From Actinomycetes bacterium (GTDB taxonomy: Bacteria; Actinomycetota; Thermoleophilia; RBG-16-64-13), in assembly GCA_024637095.1 (NCBI GenBank), contig JAGXFV010000049.1, positions 1 through 64,000 of the forward strand: a stretch of DNA of 64,000 bases. Reading direction: 5' to 3'. The translations under genes were made by a program, and so were the position numbers. The notes beneath the pieces were generated by a model. That model saw only the letters and a list, made by a program, of their open reading frames with translations, did no database searches and was not told the origin of the DNA. Of this stretch, positions 28,168-38,786 are shown piece after piece. Numbering within the stretch: position 1 is the stretch's first letter; each line of letters opens with the position of its first letter.

Positions 28168-28281
28168 TTCGTCGCCTCCTAGCTCCATCAACATCTCGAG
28201 ACCGCCCCTTTGTCCGGCGGCTCTCAGGGTCCTTCCCCTGTTATGGAAAGAGCGAGTAGATGCCAGGAAGGGAGAAAGCTT

Positions 28282-30276
28282 TTGAGCGAAAAGAAGATGT
28301 TCACCGTGATTTTCCAGCCCTCGGGAAGCCGGGGCAAGGTTGAGGAGGGAACCCCGGTTCTGCAGGCAGGACGGGATCTCGGTGTCGAAATCGAAGCCAT
28401 CTGCGGCGAGAAGCGAACCTGCGGCAAGTGTAAGATCCGTGTCGAAGAAGGCTTTTTCGAGCGCTACGGAATCGAATCCGCGGCGGACCACGTCTCCAAG
28501 TGGCGGCCGGTCGAAGAGAAATTCATCAATGAAAAGCGCCGCGAAGAGGGCTACCGGCTGAGCTGTGTGGCCAAAGTCGACGGCGATCTGGTCATCTTCG
28601 TCCCCGAGGAAAGCCGCTCCGGCGGCCAGGTGGTGCGCAAGGCCGCCACCGACCGTAAGATCGAGGTCAACCCGTCGATTAACACCTACTACGTCGAGTT
28701 GGTCCCCCCCACCCTCCACGATCCGCTGGGCGACTATGAGCGCATGGTCGAGGGACTCAAGGAGCAGCACGGTCTCGAAGAGCGGCCCAGGATCGACTAT
28801 CAGGTGCTGCGTACGTTGCCCGACGTCATCCGCGAGGCTCACTGGAAGGTCTCGGTTGCCATCTGGGACGGTGACGGCTTCCCGGAGATCGTAAAAGTGA
28901 CCCCGGGTAAGGTCGAGCGCAGCCTCGGGCTTGCCGTGGACGTGGGTACTACCACGGTCGCCGCCTACCTTTGTGACCTGCACACGGGTGAGGTGCTGAA
29001 CACCGACTCCATGATGAACCCGCAGGTACCTTACGGCGAAGATGTGATGAGCCGGATCACCTACGCGATGTCCCACCCCGAGGACGGCATCAAGAAGTTG
29101 CAGGACGCCATCATCGAGGGCATCAACACGATCGCGGCCCGGGTTACTGAGGCGGTTGGCTTCACCCATCGCGACATCCTCGAGATGACGATCGTGTTCA
29201 ACACCGCCATGCACCACTGCTTCCTAGGGATCTACCCTGAGCATCTGGGTCTGGCTCCATACGCCCCGGCGTTGCACCATTCGATGAACATCAAGGCGCG
29301 AGATCTCAAGCTGGACTTCGCTCTAGGTGCCAACGTGTTCGTGCTGCCCAACGAAGCCGGCTTCGTTGGCGCGGATAACGTCGGTGTGCTTATCGCCGAA
29401 GCGCCGTACAACCAGGACGAGAAAGTGCTGATCATCGACATCGGCACCAACGGCGAGCTCATCATGGGCAACCGGCAAGAGCTGATCTCCTCGTCCTGCG
29501 CTACGGGTCCCGCGCTCGAAGGCGCGCACATCAAGTACGGGATGCGGGCGGCTCCGGGAGCGATCGAGAGGATCTACATCAATCCGGAGACCAAAGAGCC
29601 GCGCTACAAGGTGATCGGCAAGGAAGAATGGTCCGATCAGATTCCGCAGGGAGAAATCGGCACCAAGGGCATCTGCGGCTCGGGCATCATCGATGCCATC
29701 GCCGAACTCTTCAAGGCCGGCATCATCGACAAGACCGGCAAGTTCGTCAAGGGTATGGACGAGCAGTACGAGCGGATCCGCAGAGGCGACGACGGCATGG
29801 AATACGTGCTGGCCTGGGCCGATGAGACCTCGATCCACCAAGACGTGGTCATCACTATCAAGGACGTCCGTTCGGTACAGCTTGCCAAGGGCGCGCTCTA
29901 CGCCGGCGCCAAGATCATGATGCAGAAGCTCGGGTACGAGTCGCTGGACAAGGTCATTCTGGCCGGCGCCTTCGGTTCGTTCATCGACCGGGAGGAATCC
30001 CTTGTAATCGGGATGTTCCCCGACGTGCCTATCGCCAAAGCCTACGCGGTCGGTAACGCGGCCGGCGACGGTGCCCGGATGGCTCTGCTCGACAAGAGCA
30101 AGCGTGCCGAAGCCGACGAATGGGCCCGCAAGGTCGAATACATCGAGCTCTCGGTGGAGCCGAAGTTCGAGAAGGAATTCATGATGGCGATGCATCTGCC
30201 GCACATGAAGGACAAGTTCGGACACTTGGCGGAAGGTCTGGAAGGCGAAGGCCTCGACGGACTCGTCAAGGCTTAA
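28282..30276 (+). CDS. Reductive activator of corrinoid proteins (RACE)
   Basis: A 664-residue ASKHA-type activator that uses ATP to return inactive cob(II)alamin in corrinoid proteins to cob(I)alamin. An N-terminal [2Fe-2S] ferredoxin-like domain has Cys in ICGEKRTCGKCKIRV and a later LSCVAKVDGDLVIF. The ATPase part carries LAVDVGTTTVAAYLCDL, IDIGTNGELIMG and ILAGAFGSFIDREES. TTG at 28282 is chosen because GGGAG lies 8 nt upstream; ATG 28297 is possible. First gene after the cobalamin riboswitch and 14 nt before the MtrH-like gene. Confidence 0.93.
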   Translation: MSEKKMFTVIFQPSGSRGKVEEGTPVLQAGRDLGVEIEAICGEKRTCGKCKIRVEEGFFERYGIESAADHVSKWRPVEEKFINEKRREEGYRLSCVAKVDGDLVIFVPEESRSGGQVVRKAATDRKIEVNPSINTYYVELVPPTLHDPLGDYERMVEGLKEQHGLEERPRIDYQVLRTLPDVIREAHWKVSVAIWDGDGFPEIVKVTPGKVERSLGLAVDVGTTTVAAYLCDLHTGEVLNTDSMMNPQVPYGEDVMSRITYAMSHPEDGIKKLQDAIIEGINTIAARVTEAVGFTHRDILEMTIVFNTAMHHCFLGIYPEHLGLAPYAPALHHSMNIKARDLKLDFALGANVFVLPNEAGFVGADNVGVLIAEAPYNQDEKVLIIDIGTNGELIMGNRQELISSSCATGPALEGAHIKYGMRAAPGAIERIYINPETKEPRYKVIGKEEWSDQIPQGEIGTKGICGSGIIDAIAELFKAGIIDKTGKFVKGMDEQYERIRRGDDGMEYVLAWADETSIHQDVVITIKDVRSVQLAKGALYAGAKIMMQKLGYESLDKVILAGAFGSFIDREESLVIGMFPDVPIAKAYAVGNAAGDGARMALLDKSKRAEADEWARKVEYIELSVEPKFEKEFMMAMHLPHMKDKFGHLAEGLEGEGLDGLVKA

Positions 30277-30290
30277 GGGGGGTTCAACAA

Positions 30291-31280
30291 ATGGCAGATG
30301 CTACAGGCTCAGGATCCAAGATGTTCAACTTCGACACAGAGCAGAAGGTGTTCGAGATCGCAGGGATCAAGGTGGGCGGGCAGCCGGGGGTCAATCCTCC
30401 CCTGCTCATTCCCTCCATGTTCCAGAAGGGCGATCCGGCCATCGAAAGTCGCCGGCAGCGCAAGTTCAATAAGCAGTTGGCCGGGGACAACATCAAGCGG
30501 ATGGAAGAACTGTCCGAGATGACCGGCATGCCCGCACTGGTGGCGATGGTGGCCAATCAGGGCGAAGAGATGAAGAACTACATCGACTTCTACGTGGAGG
30601 CCACTGATCTTCCTTTCGCTATCGACATGTGGAACCTGGATCCTCGGATGGAGGCCACCAAGTACGTGGCCGAGCAGGGACTGCAGGACCGACTCCTCTA
30701 CAACTCCGTTACGGTGTGGAGCCCGGACGTACCTGCCGAGGTCGAGCTGATCAAGGAACTCGGCGTGAAGCACGTGGTCACAGTGGTCATGGACATGGTC
30801 AACCAGACCCCCAGCGGTCGCCTGAGCTCTCTCGACGATATGTTGGACAAGATGAAGCCCGGTGAGTTCGAGAGCATCCTGGTAGACACCTCGGTCATGA
30901 ACCTGCCGGCCACCGGCATATGTGCCCTGGCCAACCGGTTGGTCAAGGAGAAGTACGGGCTACCCGCCGGTGCAGCATCGGCCAACGGCACTTATATGTG
31001 GCAGAAGTCGACCTACCGGGACAATAGGGAGAAGTGGGGCGAGAACGCATTCGTCGGCCTCGACGCCGGCACGCACGCCGCCTCGGTAGCCCTTTGGGGC
31101 GACTTCATCTTCAGCGGCCCGATGTGGGGCATTGACTCGGTCTTCCCGGCCGTGGCCGCCGCGCACTCGATGGTCAGCCTGATGAACTGGGCGGAGACGG
31201 GTGAACTGACTCAAAACGAGTCGACGCCCCTACACAAGTTGTGGCCGGATTATGTCAAGACACTCAAGGGTGAAGAGTAA
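30291..31280 (+). CDS. MtrH-family methyltransferase (corrinoid to pterin)
   Basis: A 329-residue protein related to tetrahydromethanopterin S-methyltransferase subunit H. It starts MFNFDTEQKVFEIAGIKVGG after a short leader, the family N-terminus, and keeps ELSEMTGMPALVAMVANQGEE and the TIM-barrel pattern. In bacterial corrinoid systems these enzymes move the methyl group from methyl-corrinoid protein to tetrahydrofolate. Spacing to RACE is 14 nt. The pterin acceptor (tetrahydrofolate) is inferred. Confidence 0.88.
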   Translation: MADATGSGSKMFNFDTEQKVFEIAGIKVGGQPGVNPPLLIPSMFQKGDPAIESRRQRKFNKQLAGDNIKRMEELSEMTGMPALVAMVANQGEEMKNYIDFYVEATDLPFAIDMWNLDPRMEATKYVAEQGLQDRLLYNSVTVWSPDVPAEVELIKELGVKHVVTVVMDMVNQTPSGRLSSLDDMLDKMKPGEFESILVDTSVMNLPATGICALANRLVKEKYGLPAGAASANGTYMWQKSTYRDNREKWGENAFVGLDAGTHAASVALWGDFIFSGPMWGIDSVFPAVAAAHSMVSLMNWAETGELTQNESTPLHKLWPDYVKTLKGEE

Positions 31281-31317
31281 ACCCGGCCAAACGAGCGAAA
31301 AGGAGCAGGACGAACAC

Positions 31318-32361
31318 ATGACTATGACGCACAAGGAACGGGTTCTCAAGACGATCAAAGGGGAGCCGGTCGATAAGATGCCGGCGTTCACCGGGTTCGG
31401 CGCGGTCCTCGTCGAGGGGCTGGAGAAGTACGGTCTGCGCTTTGCCCATGTCCACCTGGACGCGGACGAAATGGCCAAGGCTGCAGCGGCGACGAGCGAG
31501 TTGGCCGGCCTCGAGGCAATCGTGGTGCCGTTCGACATGGGCGTGGAGGCCGAAGCTCTGGGCGCTACGCTCAACACCTACCCGCACTCCGAGGACCTTC
31601 TCTACCCCACGCTGCGCGACAAGTTCGTGCATACGGCGGATGACATCAACCTGCCCGCGGACATCGCGAACGCGGGTCGCGTGCCCCTGGTGACAGAGGC
31701 CATCAAGAAGCTCAAAGAGCAGTACGGCGAAGAATACGCCGTGGCGTCCTGGGTGCTCGGTCCCTTCACCTTGGCCGGCCAGGTGATGGACCTGAACGAA
31801 CTGCTGAAAATGAGCTTCAAGGAGCCGGAAAAGGCTAACGCCATCCTCGACAAGCTGAGCGACATGATCATCGGTGTGGGTAAGGCCTATATCGCCGCCG
31901 GTGCGGACTACCTCTCGCTCCGCGAGATGGGAGCCACCTCCGACGTGCTCTCGCCTCGGGCCTACAAGAAGCAAATCAAGGGCTTCTCGCAACGCATCGT
32001 CGAGGAACTGAAGGCAACGGGCGTGCCCATCGTCTACCATATCTGTGGCGACACCAACATGATCATCGAGGATATGGCGGAACTCGGTGCCGACGCGGTC
32101 TCTGTGGACCAAAAGAACGACCTCAAGGCCAGCCGGGAGAAGCTGGGCGACGAGGTGGTCCTTCTCGGCAACATAAATCCCTGGGATGTTTTCACCCAAG
32201 GGAGCAAGGAAGACGTTCAGCGCGAGGTTAGGGCGTCAGTGGAGGCGGGCGCGGACGCGGTCTGGCCCGGCTGCGACATCTGGCCGACCACTTCGACCGC
32301 GAACATCAAGACCTGGGTGGAAACCAGCCACGAGCTGACACCTCGGCGGAACGGCGCCTAG
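31318..32361 (+). CDS. MtaA/UroD-family corrinoid methyltransferase (Cys form)
   Basis: A 347-residue uroporphyrinogen-decarboxylase-fold methyltransferase. The zinc ligands of the MtaA/MtbA type are present: His and Cys in YHICGD near residue 241, and the C-terminal Cys in WPGCDIWPTTSTANIK near 322. Such enzymes activate a thiol or transfer methyl groups to or from a corrinoid protein. It lies between the MtrH-like gene and the corrinoid protein. It is the internal control for the Sec-containing relative at 34140, where the C-terminal Cys position is TGA. Confidence 0.88.
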   Translation: MTMTHKERVLKTIKGEPVDKMPAFTGFGAVLVEGLEKYGLRFAHVHLDADEMAKAAAATSELAGLEAIVVPFDMGVEAEALGATLNTYPHSEDLLYPTLRDKFVHTADDINLPADIANAGRVPLVTEAIKKLKEQYGEEYAVASWVLGPFTLAGQVMDLNELLKMSFKEPEKANAILDKLSDMIIGVGKAYIAAGADYLSLREMGATSDVLSPRAYKKQIKGFSQRIVEELKATGVPIVYHICGDTNMIIEDMAELGADAVSVDQKNDLKASREKLGDEVVLLGNINPWDVFTQGSKEDVQREVRASVEAGADAVWPGCDIWPTTSTANIKTWVETSHELTPRRNGA

Positions 32362-32433: not shown

Positions 32434-33099
32434 ATGGGATCCGACGAGCGCAAGCAGGAACTTTTCGGCAAGATGAAGGAAGGCGTCATCGAGTACGACG
32501 AAGACCAAGTCGTCGAGGCCGCCAATGCCCTGGTCGACGAAGGCTTCGATGCCTACGAGGGCATCATGGACGGCCTGGCCGCCGGCATGGAAGTCGTCGG
32601 CGAACTGTTTGATAGTCAAGAGTACTTCGTTCCCGAAGTCCTGATGTGCGCCGACGCCCTGTACGCCGGCCTCGATATCCTGCGTCCCAGAGTGGACATG
32701 ACAGGCCGCGAGGCTGTCAAGGGCGAGGTAGTGATCGGTGTGGTCGAGGGCGACGTGCACGACATCGGCAAGAACCTCGTGAAGATGATGTTCGAGGTCG
32801 CCGGCTTCACCGTACACGACCTGGGCGCGGACGTGCCGATCGACGAGTTCGTAGAGAAGCAGATCAACACCAACTCGGACATCGTGGCCTTGTCCGCCAT
32901 GATGACCACCACCATGATGGGTATGAAGAAAGCCATCGTGAAGCTGAAGGAAAAGAACCCGGACGTCATGATCATGCTGGGCGGCGCCCCGGTTACCGGC
33001 GAGATCGCCGACATGTTCGGTGCGGATGGCTACTCCGAGAACGCCTCCAACGCGGTTTCCGAGGCGATCAAGATGGTGGCTGCACTCCGCAAGATGTAG
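32434..33099 (+). CDS. Methyl-accepting corrinoid protein (MtbC/MttC-like)
   Basis: A 221-residue B12-binding protein. The N-terminal helical cap domain spans about residues 1-90. The Rossmann-like cobalamin domain starts KGEVVIGVVEGDVHDIGKNL, with the lower-axial-ligand His in DxHxxG, followed by LSAMMTTTMMGMKKAI and MLGGAPVTGEIADMFGADGY. It shuttles the methyl group between the methyltransferases and is reactivated by RACE. Strong hairpins lie on both sides of the gene. Confidence 0.95.
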   Translation: MGSDERKQELFGKMKEGVIEYDEDQVVEAANALVDEGFDAYEGIMDGLAAGMEVVGELFDSQEYFVPEVLMCADALYAGLDILRPRVDMTGREAVKGEVVIGVVEGDVHDIGKNLVKMMFEVAGFTVHDLGADVPIDEFVEKQINTNSDIVALSAMMTTTMMGMKKAIVKLKEKNPDVMIMLGGAPVTGEIADMFGADGYSENASNAVSEAIKMVAALRKM

Positions 33100-33179: not shown

Positions 33180-33914
33180 TTGGCACTCGTAGACCGTCGG
33201 ACCGGACTGGTCGAGACGATAGAGGAACTCGCACTGGATTGCGGCGTGGATGTCTTGGGCTTTGGGGACGTGAGCGAGGCCCTCCCCCCGGGTTTCGCTC
33301 ATCTTCCCGTTGGAGTCTCGGTCGGAGTGGCCCTCGGGCAGAGCCCTGGTGGCCCTGCCCGTTACGATCACCGCGACGCCCAGATACAGAGCATTCTGGA
33401 TGAGGCCCTTAGGGAGATCGCTGCCTTCCTCCGCTTGCGAGCGTACCGGTATTTCTGCTGTCCCGCCGAGTGCGACCCCATGGAATCACCGTTCACCGCC
33501 CGGATGGCGCATCGGTTCTCTCACAAGGCTGCGGCGACTTGCGCGGGCCTCGGCTGGGTTGGACGCAACGGGCTGTTGATCCACCCCGAGCTCGGTCCCT
33601 ACGTGTCCTGGGCCACGGTTGTCACGAACGCGCCCTTGCCTCTGGGGGACCCGTGGATCGAAGGACAGTGTGGCAGTTGCACGGCCTGTGCCGAGGCCTG
33701 TCCCGCGGGGGCAATCAGCGGGAGGGTTTGGCGGAGGAGCCATGGCATGCGCCGATTGGTTGACGCCGACCGCTGCCGGGGCTCTTTGGACGTTGTGGAA
33801 AGGGAAACGGGCTCTCGCGTCTGCGGTCGGTGCGTAGTTGCCTGTGCGTCCGTCTATCGGGAGAAGAGCGCCGTTGGACGTACGGGCCTTGAGTTAGATT
33901 GGTCTAACCTATAA
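33180..33914 (+). CDS. QueG-like iron-sulfur protein
   Basis: A 244-residue protein similar to epoxyqueuosine reductase. It has the RFSHKAAATCAGLGWVGRNG and LLIHPELGPYVSWATVVTN segments and a ferredoxin-like cluster site CGSCTACAEACPAGAI plus CGRCVVACAS, enough for about two [4Fe-4S] clusters. QueG enzymes bind cobalamin, and QueG-like proteins occur in other corrinoid loci. The start is uncertain: TTG 33180 is the best placed, but no ribosome site is clear. It may donate electrons to corrinoid factors rather than make queuosine. Confidence 0.72.
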   Translation: MALVDRRTGLVETIEELALDCGVDVLGFGDVSEALPPGFAHLPVGVSVGVALGQSPGGPARYDHRDAQIQSILDEALREIAAFLRLRAYRYFCCPAECDPMESPFTARMAHRFSHKAAATCAGLGWVGRNGLLIHPELGPYVSWATVVTNAPLPLGDPWIEGQCGSCTACAEACPAGAISGRVWRRSHGMRRLVDADRCRGSLDVVERETGSRVCGRCVVACASVYREKSAVGRTGLELDWSNL

Positions 33915-34139: not shown

Positions 34140-35225
34140 ATGGGTAAGCAAGCTGTCTTGGATGCATACCAAGGCAAGTACACGCCAGTAGTGCCTTGGG
34201 TGCCGTATGTGGGTGTCCATGCGGGCTATCTGATCGGAGAGCCGGCGGACAAGCTCCTGCAGGACGCCGACCTGCTGGCCAAGGGCGTCCTGAACGCCGC
34301 CGAGCGCTACAATGCCGACGGCATTCCCCTCGCCTTTGACCTCGCCATCGAGGCCATGTCGATGGGTATCGAGGCGAAGTGGTTCCCGGACAATCCGCCG
34401 ACGGTGATCGACCATCCGCTGCAGCATAAGACCATGGCGGAAGCCGATCTGAAGGTGCCGGGCCCGAAAGATGGTCGCTGGCCGTTGATTATCGAGGCCG
34501 GCAAGAAGGTGAAGGAGCAACTCGGGGACCGTGCCCTGATCGGGTTGACCTGTGGTCCTCTGACCCTCGCCTCTCACCTGCGCGGCGCCAAATTCTTCAC
34601 GGACATGGTGAAGAAGCCCGAGTTGGCTGCCGAGATCATGGAGTTCGCGGCTCTCGTGACCAAAGAGTCGGCGCGAATCTACGCGGAAGAAATCGGCTGT
34701 GACATCGTCGCTTTGGTGGAACCCGTGGGTAGCCAGGTGCGCCCGGAGACGTACGACAAGTTCGTGATTCCCGCGTGCCAGCCGGCTCTCGAAACGATTC
34801 ACGCGGCCGACAAGGTCTCCGCCTTGTACATCTGCGGCGACGCCACCAAGATCGTCGAGAACATGATGTACACCGGCGCGCACGCCGTGTGCGTGGACGA
34901 GCAGCTCAACATGAACTACATCCGCGATTGCGCCCTCAAGTATGGTCGCGGTTTCGCCGGCAACCTCAAGCTGACCCTCGCCCTCTCCCTGGGTCTCGTC
35001 GACCCGCGTGAAGACGCTATCGTCAGCTTGGCGGCCGGTGGGAAGATCGGGTTCACCTTCTCCCCTGGCTGAGACATGCCTTACGACGTTCCAGTTGAGA
35101 ACGTGGATAAGGTTCTGGAAGCCAAGACCTGGTACGAGCAGTACTACGCCCATTACCCGAACGTGCCCTACCCGTCGATCGAGCCCAAGAAGACGCCGGC
35201 GGAACCGATCGTGGAGGTGAGCTAG
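34140..35225 (+). CDS. Selenocysteine-containing UroD/MtaA-family methyltransferase
   Basis: Read to the first TGA (35070-35072) this gives 310 residues ending GKIGFTFSPG. Read through the TGA as Sec it continues DMPYDVPVENVDKVLEAKTW and ends at TAG 35223, for 361 residues. SPG-U-D...P.ENV is the family's C-terminal zinc-ligand motif, with Cys replaced by Sec at residue 311; the relative at 31318 has PGCD there. The other ligand region is LYICGD: Cys is kept but the usual His is Tyr. AAGGAGG precedes ATG 34140. It is likely the substrate-facing methyltransferase of the locus; the substrate is unknown. No selenocysteine machinery genes are in the window. Confidence 0.88.
35070..35120 (+). promoter_or_regulatory. 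Sec TGA codon and candidate SECIS of the UroD-family gene
   Basis: TGA 35070-35072 is followed by AGAAC (35098-35102) pairing with GTTCT (35112-35116) around GTGGATAAG. The loop begins with G, 30 nt after the codon, inside the range used for bacterial SECIS models. A competing stem ACGTT/AACGT (35086/35100) exists. This is the weakest of the five SECIS candidates; the protein-level evidence is stronger. Confidence 0.5.
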
Positions 35226-35573
35226 TTGGCTGAAAACGACAAGATTGTTGTTGAAGTCCTGACACTAGACTCTCTGCAGTGACCGGCGTGCGGGTACATG
35301 GTCGATGTACTTAATTCACTGTCGCCGGAAGTCAAGGACATAATCGATTACAAAGAGTGGTCCATCAAGAACGCCGAAGGTATCGGCATGTTCATGGAAC
35401 GCAAAGGCCGCGTCCTGCCCACTCTTTGCATCGGGGAACAGCTCTGCTACGAGAGCGTCATCCCCACGATCGACGAGCTCTACGAGACGTTGATCGACAA
35501 CGCCAAGAGCGAAGAGCAGAAGACGATTCTCAAGACCTCGTACGACGAGTTCCTGGAGGAGTACAACAAGTAG
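35226..35573 (+). CDS. Thioredoxin-like selenoprotein 1 (UPAC motif)
   Basis: A 115-residue protein starting at TTG 35226, directly after the TAG of the previous gene, with GGAGGTGA five nt upstream. In-frame TGA at 35280 gives VVEVLTLDSLQ-U-PACGYMV, a UxxC redox site after the first beta strand, followed by LPTLCIGEQLCYESVIPT with the cis-Pro position of the thioredoxin fold. Without read-through only a start-less downstream fragment from 35298 remains. A textbook SECIS follows the TGA. Likely a thiol/selenol reductant or metal(loid)-handling protein for the neighbouring enzymes. Confidence 0.88.
35280..35310 (+). promoter_or_regulatory. Sec TGA codon and SECIS of thioredoxin-like selenoprotein 1
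   Basis: TGA 35280-35282 is followed by GTACAT (35294-35299), loop GGTCG (35300-35304) and ATGTAC (35305-35310), a perfect 6-bp stem. The loop starts 18 nt after the codon. Both loop sequence and spacing closely resemble the E. coli fdhF SECIS, whose loop is GGUCU. Confidence 0.88.
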
Positions 35574-35660: not shown

Positions 35661-35774
35661 ATGCAGGACATCCTGATCGAAGTATTGACCCTCGACTCCA
35701 AGCAATGACCATGTTGCTGGTACTTGGTCGATGTACTCGAGTTCAACGAGCGGCGCATACCGATGAGCAGTTGA
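35661..35774 (+). CDS. Thioredoxin-like selenoprotein 2 (UPCC motif), short or degenerate
   Basis: ATG 35661 has GGGAGG just upstream. Reading TGA 35706-35708 as Sec gives MQDILIEVLTLDSKQ-U-PCCWYLVDVLEFNE, closely parallel to the first 30 residues of the copy at 35226. The frame then stops at TGA 35772 after 37 residues. In the +2 frame a protein-like tail (RAAHTDEQLTVREGARQHVL) runs to TGA 35822-35824, which overlaps the ATG of the next gene. A frameshift in a full-length ancestor would join them. Alternatives: a real short selenopeptide, a programmed frameshift, or a second Sec. The SECIS is conserved. Confidence 0.6.
35706..35736 (+). promoter_or_regulatory. Sec TGA codon and SECIS of thioredoxin-like selenoprotein 2
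   Basis: TGA 35706-35708, then GTACTT (35720-35725), loop GGTCG (35726-35730) and ATGTAC (35731-35736). The stem has one T-T mismatch. Loop sequence and the 17-nt gap to the codon are identical to the copy at 35280. Confidence 0.78.
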
Positions 35775-35823: not shown

Positions 35824-36390
35824 ATGGCGGTTCGGCGCGTAGCGCTGCACGCCTGCGGGGGAATTACCCGCCCCGGCTCCACGGTCGCGCGGCTGGCGGT
35901 CTATTACGTCGCCGAGGAGTTGCTCCCCGAGAAGGCGCTGGTTTCCTGCGCTCCCGCCTTTCTCCGCGGAGTCGAGGAAGACGTTCTCATGGTGCAGAAG
36001 AGCCCCTCCATCGCCCTCGACGGTTGCGAATGGAGTTGCGGCACGAATCTGCTCTATCTGGCCGGCATCATCCCGGCCGCCCGCATCCTCATACCCGAAT
36101 ACGCGGAGGCTTGCGGGTACGATTTGACCCAGGTGAATCTGCGCTTCCCCACGGGAGTGGGCCGCGATCTGGCGTGGGCAGTCGCGGAGAGGATAGCCGC
36201 GATCGGCAGGGGTATGCTCGAACGGGGGAGCGACTATCGCTTCGAGCGGCCGGGGATCGTCCGCCGCCAGGGGGAGTGGTTCCGTCCGGCGCCCAATATG
36301 GAGGGGGCCTTGGAGTTCGTTCGTCTGGAGCCGGGAGTCTACCGGCCCGTGGGGATGCCGCCTCTTCCCGAAGAGTCAAGGGAGGCCTGA
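35824..36390 (+). CDS. DGC-domain putative metal-binding protein 1
   Basis: A 188-residue protein with the DGC-type putative zinc-binding pattern: an early ALHACGGITRPGSTVARLA, a Cys at LVSCAPAF, and ALDGCEWSCGTNLL near residue 65, plus Cys in EACGYDL. Its ATG overlaps the TGA of the preceding frame (tgATG). It is paralogous to the next gene. DGC proteins are of unknown function but have conserved cysteines suited to metal or thiol chemistry; context suggests handling of a metal(loid) or selenol intermediate. Confidence 0.78.
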   Translation: MAVRRVALHACGGITRPGSTVARLAVYYVAEELLPEKALVSCAPAFLRGVEEDVLMVQKSPSIALDGCEWSCGTNLLYLAGIIPAARILIPEYAEACGYDLTQVNLRFPTGVGRDLAWAVAERIAAIGRGMLERGSDYRFERPGIVRRQGEWFRPAPNMEGALEFVRLEPGVYRPVGMPPLPEESREA

Positions 36391-36395
36391 GCGCT

Positions 36396-37013
36396 GTGGT
36401 GGAGAAGGTCACTGTCTTTCCGTGTGGCGGAATCGGGGACCCGGTTTCCTCGGTGACCCGGCTGGCCGGTTATCTGCTGGCCGAGGATCTGCTGCCGGGC
36501 CGGGTGGAGTTGGTATCCATACCGCCGGTAGTAACCGGCGTCCCCGACGAACTGCGGTTGGTGCAGGAGTATCCGGTGATCGTTCTCGACGGCTGCTCGC
36601 ACCGGTGCGGGTCGAACGCGCTCAACCTGGTTGGGATTCGCCCCGCGGCGCGACTGCTGACTCCGCGCATTCGCAGCCAGACGAAGCACGCGGTCGGCCG
36701 ACGCCGTCCGTATCCGGAGACCTCGGGTCAAAAGCTGGCCAAGGCCCTGGCGGAGAAGGCCGCGGCTGTGGCTCTCGGTATGCTCGAGGATGAGTCCTAC
36801 GCCTTCGAGACTCAGCGGGTGAGCCCAAACCCCGAAGGGTTGATCGACGACACCTTCGACATCGAACGGGGCCTTGGCTATGAGGAAGTGCAGGTCGGCT
36901 GCTTCCATTGCAGCGGCATGTGCGCGTTCAAGCTCAAGGACGATCCGGAGTTGCGGCGCAGGTTGGAAGAAGAGGTCGCGGAGTTCGAGCGCCTGGAGGA
37001 TATCGAATGCTAG
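36396..37013 (+). CDS. DGC-domain putative metal-binding protein 2
   Basis: A 205-residue paralogue of the preceding gene: VFPCGGIGDPVSSVTRLAGY, LDGCSHRCGSNALNLVG, and an additional C-terminal VGCFHCSGMCAFKL cysteine cluster absent from the first copy. GTG 36396 (or 36399) follows GGGAGG. The last 7 nt overlap the following selenoprotein gene, so translation is coupled. Function unknown; the extra CxxCxxxC suggests a second metal or Fe-S site. Confidence 0.78.
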   Translation: MVEKVTVFPCGGIGDPVSSVTRLAGYLLAEDLLPGRVELVSIPPVVTGVPDELRLVQEYPVIVLDGCSHRCGSNALNLVGIRPAARLLTPRIRSQTKHAVGRRRPYPETSGQKLAKALAEKAAAVALGMLEDESYAFETQRVSPNPEGLIDDTFDIERGLGYEEVQVGCFHCSGMCAFKLKDDPELRRRLEEEVAEFERLEDIEC

Positions 37014-37243
37014 ACGAAGGTCCCCAAGGCCCTTTCAAACTACGGCTGATGGGTTGAGTGACCTGCGGGCCGGCCGTGCGCCGGGTTCTCGAGGATTCGC
37101 TCGAGGTCGAGTTGGTCGAGATGGTCTGGGAGGAGCACTGGGCCGACGTCCGTTTTGCCTCGCCGGAGTTCGGCGTGGAGGAATTGCGGATGCGGCTCGT
37201 GCCCGCGGGCGCCTGGTGCGGCCCCTGGCCGGAAGAGGCCTAA
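37007..37243 (+). CDS. Small selenoprotein with UVTC motif
   Basis: A 78-residue protein. ATG 37007 lies inside the end of the DGC gene with GGAGG at 8-9 nt. In-frame TGA 37055-37057 read as Sec gives FKLRLMG-U-VTCGPAVRRVLED, a UxxC site at the start of a helix as in redox-active folds, then ends with RLVPAGAWCGPWPEEA. Codon use around the TGA is continuous. A SECIS-like stem follows at the same spacing as in the thioredoxin-like genes. I do not recognise the family beyond this. Confidence 0.78.
37055..37084 (+). promoter_or_regulatory. Sec TGA codon and SECIS of the UVTC protein
   Basis: TGA 37055-37057 is followed by CCGGC (37070-37074), loop CGTGC (37075-37079) and GCCGG (37080-37084). 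The loop begins 18 nt after the codon, exactly as in the 35280 and 35706 elements. G is the second loop base. Confidence 0.68.
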
Positions 37244-37272: not shown

Positions 37273-37569
37273 ATGCTGACGGTCCAGGTTATTTCCGAGG
37301 GCGGGCACTGCGTTCCCTGAATCATGGCGATCGAGGCCACCAGGGAGGTGGCTGCGGAATTCGGCCAGGCGGCCGTGAAGGTGGAGGTGGTCACCCTCAA
37401 GGAAGCCGAGGGAGCCGCGCGCTACCGTGAGCTTCGGCGCCAGGCCGGCGAACACCTGCCGGTTCCCAGCGTGCTGGTGGAGGGGGCTCTGGCCTTTTCC
37501 GCCATCCCCGAGCCGGATGAGTTGCGTGAGGTTTTCCAGCGGGCGCTCTTCAAGCAAGGCGGCGACTAG
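37273..37569 (+). CDS. Thioredoxin-like selenoprotein 3 (CVPU motif)
   Basis: A 98-residue protein from ATG 37273. In-frame TGA 37318-37320 read as Sec gives TVQVISEGGHCVP-U-IMAIEA, a CxxU site after beta strand 1 and before a helix. Later HLPVPSVLVEGALAFSAIPE has the cis-Pro strand of a thioredoxin fold. Only a downstream fragment is visible if the TGA is taken as stop. The end overlaps the GTG of the next gene by one base (TAGTG). The reversed order (CxxU against UxxC in the other copies) suggests a distinct redox role. Confidence 0.85.
37318..37352 (+). promoter_or_regulatory. Sec TGA codon and SECIS of the CVPU protein
   Basis: TGA 37318-37320, then GCCACC (37336-37341), loop AGGGA (37342-37346) and GGTGGC (37347-37352), a perfect 6-bp stem. 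The loop starts 22 nt after the codon and has G at position two. Confidence 0.72.
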
Positions 37570-38786
37570 TGCTCTACCTCGAAGGCTTCTACGGGCAGCG
37601 CGTGCGTGTGCCTGAGGACCGCCGCTACGATCCTGAGCGCGAACTCTGGCTGCTCGAGGGGGACGGCCGGGTGGTTCTGGGACTCACCCACGCAGGCGTT
37701 GTGTTGTCCGGGGGAATCGAGGACCTCATGCTCGAGGCGGAGGTCGGCCAGGACATCACTGTTGGCGAGCGACTGCTATCGGTCGAAGCGTACAAGGCAG
37801 CCCAGGAAATCACGTCACCGCTGGCCGGACGTCTGGTGGCGGTGAACCGGGAAGTACTGGACAACCCGGAATTGCTGGACGAAGATCCTTATGGAGTCGG
37901 CTGGCTTATGGAATTGAAGCCGAAGCCCGTGAGCGGCGCCACACTGGCCGGATTTCCCACCGCGAACGACTATCTGCGCGCGCTGGAGTCCTCCTGCGCG
38001 GCGACTGACGAGGGGGGCGTCACCGGGGAGTCGGATCTGGGAAACGCCTCGGGGGCTGGGGTCGAGAGCGTGGCCGGCGCTTCGCCCAAGGACGGCCTGT
38101 GCGCCGAGGTCAAACGTGCCACAGTCGCGGACTGCAGCGTCCCTGTTGCTCTCGCTCGCCTGGCTCCGGGAATGAAGGTGATCAATCTGGGGGCACGGGC
38201 CGGGGAAGACGCCGTACTCACCGGCGCGCGGGTAGGCCCGGAAGGGCGCGTCCTGGGAATCGTCCCGACCGACTCCATGCTCGAACGGGATCGGTTGGCG
38301 GCGACGGACGCCGGGCTCGAGAACGTGGAGTTTCGGTCGGGGGAGATCGAGCAGATCCCCGTAGTGGACGGGTGGGCGGATATGGTTATCGCCGGTTGCG
38401 CTGTTAACCTCTCGGCGCGTAAGGACCGGGCATTCGCCGAGGTCTTCCGGGTTCTCGGAGATGGCGGTCTGCTGGCGATCTCTGACATGGTTGTCATCAA
38501 ACCGCTTCCCCCTTTTCTCTCGCGAAATCGTGCGGCCCGCTCCAGTCTCTTAGCACACGCCGTCTCCTTGGAAAAGTATCTGGCGCTCATCGAGCGGGCG
38601 GGATTCATGCGCCCCAAGGTCGAGCAGCTCATCGAGTATTCGAGCGAGCAGTTGGAGACCCTGATGGGCATGGACCTGCGGTCCTTGGAATCGGAGGGCC
38701 GAATGGCAAAGGAGGACCTGGCGCTACTCGAGGGGCGTGTGGCGAGCGCCCACATTTTGGCGCTCAAGGTTCGCTGCAACTGCTAG
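37569..38786 (+). CDS. GcvH-like lipoyl domain fused to ArsM-like methyltransferase
   Basis: A 405-residue two-domain protein. Residues ~1-125 resemble glycine-cleavage H protein, with a candidate lipoyl Lys76 in SVEAYKAAQEITSPLAGRLV and the NPELLDEDPYGVGWL motif. After a linker, residues ~175-400 resemble arsenite methyltransferase: LAPGMKVINLGARAGEDAVL, VEFRSGEIEQIPVVDGWADM, IAGCAVNLSARKDRAFAEVF. The acidic SAM-ribose residue after motif I is replaced (GIVPTDSML), so catalytic competence is uncertain. The chain ends CNC. GTG 37569 overlaps the previous stop, and its stop shares CTAG with convergent rlmN. It may present a dithiol arm to a metal(loid) methyl intermediate. Confidence 0.82.
   Translation: MLYLEGFYGQRVRVPEDRRYDPERELWLLEGDGRVVLGLTHAGVVLSGGIEDLMLEAEVGQDITVGERLLSVEAYKAAQEITSPLAGRLVAVNREVLDNPELLDEDPYGVGWLMELKPKPVSGATLAGFPTANDYLRALESSCAATDEGGVTGESDLGNASGAGVESVAGASPKDGLCAEVKRATVADCSVPVALARLAPGMKVINLGARAGEDAVLTGARVGPEGRVLGIVPTDSMLERDRLAATDAGLENVEFRSGEIEQIPVVDGWADMVIAGCAVNLSARKDRAFAEVFRVLGDGGLLAISDMVVIKPLPPFLSRNRAARSSLLAHAVSLEKYLALIERAGFMRPKVEQLIEYSSEQLETLMGMDLRSLESEGRMAKEDLALLEGRVASAHILALKVRCNC

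Follow-up and report, generated by a model that had tools for sequence, protein, structure and literature searches.

Organization of the locus

The window, that is, the whole stretch of 64,000 nucleotides that was analysed, contains an operon in which genes of corrinoid-dependent methyl transfer lie together with genes carrying in-frame TGA codons (Table 1). An earlier note on this DNA had drawn attention to one gene of the latter kind, encoding a thioredoxin-like protein (Trx); the operon holds several, and the URO-D/MtaA-type gene directly upstream, here called URO-D(Sec), is the more widespread. The QueG-like gene, the two DGC genes and the genes of the U-V-T-C, C-V-P-U and GcvH-like proteins are shared by the window and the related Actinomycetota loci (loci are designated by L numbers). 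DGC proteins are zinc-binding. The GcvH-ArsM-like protein has 405 residues, and L023-L026 match it over 117-179 residues only.

Table 1. Genes and predicted recoding features of the operon, with positions in the window.
Feature	Position	Strand	Basis
RACo-type corrinoid reductive activase	28210..30276	+	Pfam RACo domains
MtrH-type methyltransferase, methyl-corrinoid to tetrahydrofolate by homology	30303..31280	+	domain matches
Companion MtaA/MtbA-type protein, intact His-Cys-Cys	31297..32361	+	domain matches, alignment
Corrinoid protein	32434..33099	+	domain matches
QueG-like 4Fe-4S protein	33240..33914	+	homology
URO-D/MtaA-type methyltransferase homologue, one TGA read through, 361 aa	34140..35225	+	Pfam, relatives, 4ay7 alignment, model
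In-frame TGA (predicted Sec) where MtaA has its last Cys, the third Zn ligand	35070..35072	+	relatives, 4ay7 alignment
SECIS-like hairpin of URO-D(Sec), Actinomycetota form ACGTTC/GAACGT	35086..35104	+	comparison of loci
Thioredoxin-like selenoprotein (predicted), 115 aa, TTG start, U-P-A-C	35226..35573	+	sequence, relatives, structure model
In-frame TGA, predicted Sec, residue 19	35280..35282	+	TGA in window and 5 of 80 relatives, Cys in 75
SECIS-like hairpin of Trx, GTACAT-GGTCG-ATGTAC, 6 bp, loop GGTCG	35294..35310	+	identical in 6 of 6 Actinomycetota; energy alone not significant
DGC-domain protein 1	35824..36390	+	domain match
DGC-domain protein 2	36396..37013	+	domain match
Small U-V-T-C protein, TGA 37055	37007..37243	+	TGA and UVTC retained in L022-L026
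Thioredoxin-like C-V-P-U protein, TGA 37318, HUIPC-related	37273..37569	+	NF047660, 92.9 bits (cut-off 105)
GcvH-like domain fused to ArsM-like methyltransferase	37569..38786	+	domain matches

The thioredoxin-like gene and its relatives

The Trx gene starts at a TTG (35226) that abuts the TAG (35223-35225) of the upstream gene and is preceded by a ribosome-binding sequence (GGAGGTGA, 35214-35221), and it runs to the TAG at 35571-35573. Its translation reads LAENDKIVVEVLTLDSLQ-U-PACGYM...EEYNK, with the TGA falling inside the UxxC site. The call under table 11 gives only ATG 35298-35573 (91 aa), and a gene finder that treats TGA as a stop thus loses the 24 N-terminal residues, including the active site. 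The earlier note had described the TTG start directly after a TAG, the TGA in a UxxC site and the loss of 24 residues with the active site, and these points were upheld. In the alignment, the TTG start lines up with the Met starts of L023-L026.

Structure models of Trx and URO-D(Sec) were built with Cys replacing Sec. The Trx model (pLDDT 91.9) has a helix at residues 20-30, directly after U19, and shows the fold and the CxxC-type motif at the first helix that define the thioredoxin superfamily. Among the 50 PDB matches listed for the model, most were thioredoxins (TM about 0.6, best E 4.4e-03), while a PDB sequence search with Trx gave no match below E 0.3. The score of Trx against NF047660, the HUIPC family, was 29.1 bits, below the cut-off of 105. 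The U-P-A-C site is the predicted redox centre of the protein, the fold being that of the model.

A contig scan with a four-row alignment retrieved 361 relatives, and the analysis continued with the best 80. The earlier note had asked for Cys or Sec homologues that include the upstream part, and these are present in other genomes: among the best 80 of 361, the Sec position is TGA in five (L022-L026, all Actinomycetota, L022 being a contig of the window's sister species) and Cys in 75, mostly in a C-A-A-C motif. In an alignment of 37 rows, the first Cys/Sec never varies and the second Cys is present in 36. Among 396 sampled genomes of the window's phylum, Trx was found in the window's genome and the sister species only, and it is thus rare and patchy there. 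No relative was seen in viral contigs, and the plasmid search gave one match, a Subdoligranulum fusion. Since the Actinomycetota loci number only six and group in a single clade of the URO-D tree, Sec in Trx may go back to one event.

The hairpin downstream of the Trx TGA

The earlier note had described a textbook SECIS. The GTACAT-GGTCG-ATGTAC hairpin that it placed 12 nt past the TGA does begin at the 12th base after that codon and is conserved, but its energy alone is not significant: the folding energy gave z = -1.60 over 61 nt (11 of 200 shuffles equally good) and z = -0.41 over 41 nt (54 of 200 equally good). Hairpin energy, being ordinary, was rejected as proof of a SECIS in Trx. A scan for a TGA in a UxxC or CxxU motif with an open frame and a 6-bp hairpin found two sites in the window (35280 and 37318, in the same operon), and the same scan of 15 Markov replicas found six, about 0.4 per window. 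Because the energy is not unusual and similar sites occur in the replicas, the claim of Sec in Trx rests on comparison. The TGA and the entire hairpin are identical in the six Actinomycetota sequences (the window and L022-L026), among which protein identity falls to 69-73%. Of the 62 codons with an invariant amino acid in these sequences, 27 are codon-invariant: 8 of 10 within the first ten codons after the TGA as compared to 19 of 52 elsewhere.

The upstream URO-D/MtaA homologue

The frame that opens at 34140 meets a TGA at 35070 and continues to the TAG at 35223. The part before the TGA scored 131 bits with PF01208, the URO-D superfamily (gathering cut-off 23.9). Scores remained below the curated cut-offs of TIGR01463 (120.8/235.4), NF040654 (100/400) and NF041608 (86.8/600), and no model of NCBIfam, June 2026, was above cut-off for URO-D(Sec) or Trx. 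The TGA occurs in 77 of the 80 loci and in the window, at the same place within (A/S)PG-U-D-x-P. Cys takes this position in L073 and L095, and also in L021, the Subdoligranulum fusion; in L081, no URO-D gene of that type was found within 1.5 kb.

Comparison of the loci revealed a second conserved hairpin, ATGTTCC-(3 nt)-GGAACAT, after the URO-D TGA in the 72 TGA loci outside Actinomycetota. Pairing held in 488 of 504 cells (96.8%) and fell to 80-282 of 504 (16-56%) when one side was slid by 1-3 positions, and the inner six pairs were intact in 70 of the 72 loci. Double compensations occur in L072 and L089, and L050 has one double compensation plus a broken adjoining pair. At one Val position within the hairpin all 70 Val codons of these 72 loci are GTT, as compared to 24.5% of the 1590 other Val codons. 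In the Actinomycetota form, ACGTTC/GAACGT, the 3' side is displaced by two bases relative to the ATGTTCC/GGAACAT form. The Cys forms L073, L095 and L021 are without the hairpin.

In a tree of 75 rows (63 of the family and 12 companion MtaA), the split between the family and the companion MtaA had support of 100/100, at a point where long branches meet, as the program warned. Mapping Sec on the 63 family rows required at least five Sec/Cys changes. Sampling of the phylum to which the Olavius-symbiont locus belongs placed the family in 7 of 297 genomes (8 places, of which 7 have TGA); for the phylum of the Desulfofundulus locus, the figure was 20 of 398 sampled genomes (27 places, 8 of them with TGA). 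Among cultivated hosts, Desulfofundulus thermosubterraneus and Desulfatitalea alkaliphila both carry the TGA form of URO-D.

Recoding of the in-frame TGA codons

Bacterial selenoproteins are expected to have an in-frame TGA aligned with Cys of homologues, a SECIS-like hairpin just downstream, and a genome encoding SelA, SelB, SelD and tRNA-Sec. The alignment of TGA with Cys was found for both Trx and URO-D(Sec), and both TGAs are followed by conserved hairpins, the energy of the Trx hairpin alone not being significant. The window's genome, which is 96.55% complete, contains a tRNA-Sec (74.9 bits, above cut-off) together with SelA, SelB and SelD, all above their family cut-offs. The selD gene, located outside the window (C40:12598-13521, -), has one in-frame TGA of its own, and SelD is therefore probably itself a selenoprotein.

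The ATGs just past both TGAs, and the ordinary energy of the Trx hairpin region, would fit an arrangement in which the TGAs are plain stops and the tails separate small ORFs (from ATG 35076 after URO-D and ATG 35298 in Trx). Such an arrangement is extremely improbable and was rejected, because Cys relatives and fusions have the residues on either side of the TGA in a single domain, 361 relatives were found, the conserved hairpin is absent from the Cys forms, and the Sec machinery is complete. The earlier note had read 35226-35573 as a thioredoxin-like UxxC selenoprotein, and the Sec and Cys relatives, the codon conservation at the hairpin, the fold model and the complete Sec machinery bear this out. 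Judged from sequence comparison, this gene very probably encodes a genuine selenoprotein, recoding of the TGA to Sec is nearly certain, and the URO-D/MtaA homologue upstream is a selenoprotein itself.

The zinc site of URO-D(Sec)

UroD-type S-methyltransferases bind zinc through His-Cys-Cys ligands, as described in PMC10418091. In the alignment of URO-D(Sec) with MtaA 4ay7 (8.3e-21), Sec is placed at the Cys of the final PGC motif and Tyr at the position of the His in H-I-C, so that the window's protein has Tyr-Cys-Sec in place of the His-Cys-Cys of MtaA/MtbA. The URO-D(Sec) model, built from 42 rows (pLDDT 89.7), had MtaA 4ay8 as its best PDB match (TM 0.82/0.87). The count covered 79 rows (78 TGA forms including the window, and L073), three of which were too short. 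The His position of the 76 long rows is occupied by Phe in 68, Tyr in six and Leu in two, and by His in none; the last zinc-site column was unaligned in three of the 76. The companion MtaA proteins of these loci have His-Cys-Cys in 30 of 30 matches (28 loci). The alignments thus indicate that the His-Cys-Cys zinc site of MtaA became Phe/Tyr-Cys-Sec in URO-D(Sec).

Partnership of URO-D(Sec) and Trx and their neighbours

The two genes are adjacent in 79 of the 80 loci. In addition, 20 URO-D regions were fetched, of which 18 short ones (L113-L130) gave 19 rows. Seventeen URO-D-Trx fusions were identified, comprising L021, L105 and 15 of these 19 rows; the latter 15 have the Trx motif C-A-A-C or C-P-P-C. 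Such fusions are frequent in Bacillota and mostly have Cys, L113 being the only one with a TGA, and hence predicted Sec, in its URO-D part. Fusion of proteins that are adjacent elsewhere is strong evidence that URO-D and Trx work together. In L105 (3118-7556, -), the fusion adjoins an MtmB-type methylamine methyltransferase, another URO-D and a CobW GTPase.

Neighbours were surveyed by tblastn of chosen proteins against the 80 whole loci, which are of unequal length. CobW was found in 70 loci, the corrinoid protein in 48, RACo in 44, DUF2284 in 33, thioredoxin reductase (TrxR)-like genes in 28 and MtrH in 24; the MtaA count was set aside, as its matches include URO-D(Sec) itself. In L083, the order is MtrH-MtaA-corrinoid-RACo-DUF2284-URO-D(Sec)-Trx-CobW-TrxR. 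Two GcvH-like proteins are encoded in the L131 cluster along with a lipoyl synthase (311.1 bits against a cut-off of 310.25) and a dihydrolipoyl dehydrogenase (427.3 against 408.8), so that some versions of the system may include a lipoyl carrier; tblastn with this lipoyl synthase and dihydrolipoyl dehydrogenase matched none of the 80 loci. In the same contig (L131, 1-17001), URO-D(Sec) lies 6.5 kb from a second URO-D without an in-frame TGA.

Further genes with in-frame TGA codons

No Cys homologue of the U-V-T-C protein was seen; it gave a weak match to NF041115, a metal-binding (seleno)protein family (E 0.0042). In the C-V-P-U protein, the HC(V/L)PU motif is retained in L022-L026, Cys and Sec being swapped (HCVPU) in Actinomycetota loci relative to the HUIPC or HCIPC of its relatives. 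Loci of Desulfobacterota and Bacillota contain more thioredoxin-like paralogues with TGA, of the types Q-U-x-A-C, Q-U-A-S-G and the known H-U-I-P-C; the H-U-I-P-C protein of L030 scored 128.5 bits, above the NF047660 cut-off. A Q-U-A-S-G-P-Y-M paralogue, with predicted Sec and without a resolving Cys, was observed in L069 (11958-12215) and other Bacillota loci.

Downstream of Trx, a second copy at 35661-35774 (+) reads MQDILIEVLTLDSKQ-U-PCCWYLVDVLEF..., with U-P-C-C. It was rejected as a working gene because it stops after 37 codons and is further decayed in the sister species, and is probably a dying duplicate. When the window was compared with the sister species for conserved TGAs, six cases were listed, of which only 35070 lies in sense in a known gene. 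The strict filter missed the known TGAs at 35280, 37055 and 37318, so this comparison is compatible with further cases.

Comparison with known systems

URO-D(Sec) resembles the methylcobamide:thiol methyltransferases MtaA/MtbA (PDB 4ay7/4ay8) in fold, in sequence and in its operon with a corrinoid protein and activase. It differs from them in that the last Cys is replaced by Sec and the His by Phe, Tyr or Leu, in being paired or fused with a thioredoxin, and in scoring below every curated cut-off. Compared to the HUIPC protein of NF047660, Trx is likewise a small thioredoxin-like selenoprotein, and true members occur in the same neighbourhoods; Trx, however, is without the H-U-I-P-C motif, and in the 37318 protein Sec occupies the opposite end of the motif (C-V-P-U).

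The Type 1 mlp clusters of Kountz and Balskus (PMC10418091), compared here by description, share MtaA-like proteins, a corrinoid protein, an activase and a link to selenium with the present loci. As described in the available text, however, Mlp proteins have His-Cys-Cys except several Mlp1, the original clusters are without a folate methyltransferase, and no Sec is named in Mlps, whereas the loci studied here have Phe/Tyr-Cys-Sec and MtrH. The SAO and Tso operons (Haft and co-workers, via the review PMC13188914) also have several selenoprotein genes per operon, but the table of that review lists no URO-D selenoprotein for them. Its available text (May 2026, 119 families) likewise has no URO-D or MtaA selenoprotein. 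Neither a URO-D selenoprotein nor a URO-D-thioredoxin pair was found in the available text of the literature searched, including PMC9312934, PMC12013277, PMC2398784, PMC5029168, PMC8318568 and PMC9768040; an earlier mention is possible in Haft and Gwadz 2023 and in Haft and Tolstoy 2025. A thioredoxin-like UxxC selenoprotein alone is of a familiar kind, and what is new is the combination of a dedicated thioredoxin with a corrinoid-methyltransferase homologue that contains Sec.

Proposed function

The best explanation of these results, which we consider probable, is that Trx serves a Sec-containing homologue of corrinoid methyltransferases as its dedicated reductant. The UGA at 35280 would be decoded as Sec by SelB and tRNA-Sec, aided by the downstream hairpin, as the comparison suggests. 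The Cys-Sec pair of URO-D(Sec) would no longer be a plain zinc site and may become oxidised in turnover with the corrinoid protein of the operon, either to a selenenylsulfide or to a selenol adduct, which Trx would then reduce. Electrons for Trx might come from the thioredoxin reductase encoded nearby in some Desulfobacterota. Methyl groups would be exchanged among the substrate, the corrinoid protein, which RACo keeps active, and tetrahydrofolate, the last via MtrH. Homology fixes neither the substrate nor the direction of methyl transfer, and soft methylated S, Se or As compounds are the best guess.

Some observations count against a dedicated reductant. TrxR-like genes were found in 28 of the 80 loci only, in a search that covered these loci; the frequency of CobW is easier to reconcile with a metal site than with a redox pair free of metal; and the Q-U-A-S-G paralogues without the second Cys make two-residue redox chemistry unfit for the whole family. 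The CobW association and the single-Cys paralogues keep two other models alive.

In one, which is somewhat unlikely, both proteins are selenoproteins and the Cys-Sec of URO-D binds a metal or metalloid. Sec would be a soft ligand, either for zinc or for a methylated compound of Se, As or Hg whose methyl group is passed to the corrinoid protein, with Trx keeping the site reduced or delivering the substrate and CobW loading the metal. CobW-type GTPases, also found adjoining the fusions L021 and L105, point in this direction, as do the nearby DGC proteins and DUF2284 (predicted by Pfam to be metal-binding), the downstream ArsM-like domain, the retention of Cys and Sec while His was lost, and the existence of a known multi-selenoprotein system described as 'Sec-assisted organometallic' (PMC13188914). 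The His ligand, however, is gone in every long URO-D row, no metal appeared in any computed result, and the Trx fusions suggest a redox need.

In the other model, which appears improbable, Trx is the acceptor of a methyl group (or of sulfur or selenium), its Cys/Sec taking the role that coenzyme M has for MtaA. MtaA-type enzymes methylate a thiol (PMC10418091), a fusion would hold the acceptor next to the enzyme, and the first Cys/Sec of Trx is invariant while the second is missing in the Q-U-A-S-G paralogues. Against this stand the near-universal second Cys (36 of 37 rows), the ordinary thioredoxin fold of Trx and the altered zinc site, which would have to activate the thiol.

The system may tentatively represent an undescribed type of enzyme, with the zinc-thiolate site of a corrinoid thiol methyltransferase converted to a Cys-Sec centre and a dedicated thioredoxin, in many cases fused, serving that centre. 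Such an enzyme would carry out redox-coupled methyl transfer, e.g., the reductive removal of methyl groups from methylated Se, As or S compounds, its hosts being sulfate reducers, other Bacillota and subsurface Actinomycetota. Gene callers routinely truncate selenoproteins, and a whole selenoprotein module is split in this way in many genomes. If true, Sec at a former zinc-ligand position, together with the loss of His and the presence of a thioredoxin, would connect methyl transfer via corrinoids with the redox chemistry of thiols and selenols, a connection that the natural Cys fusions and the cultivated relatives make directly testable.
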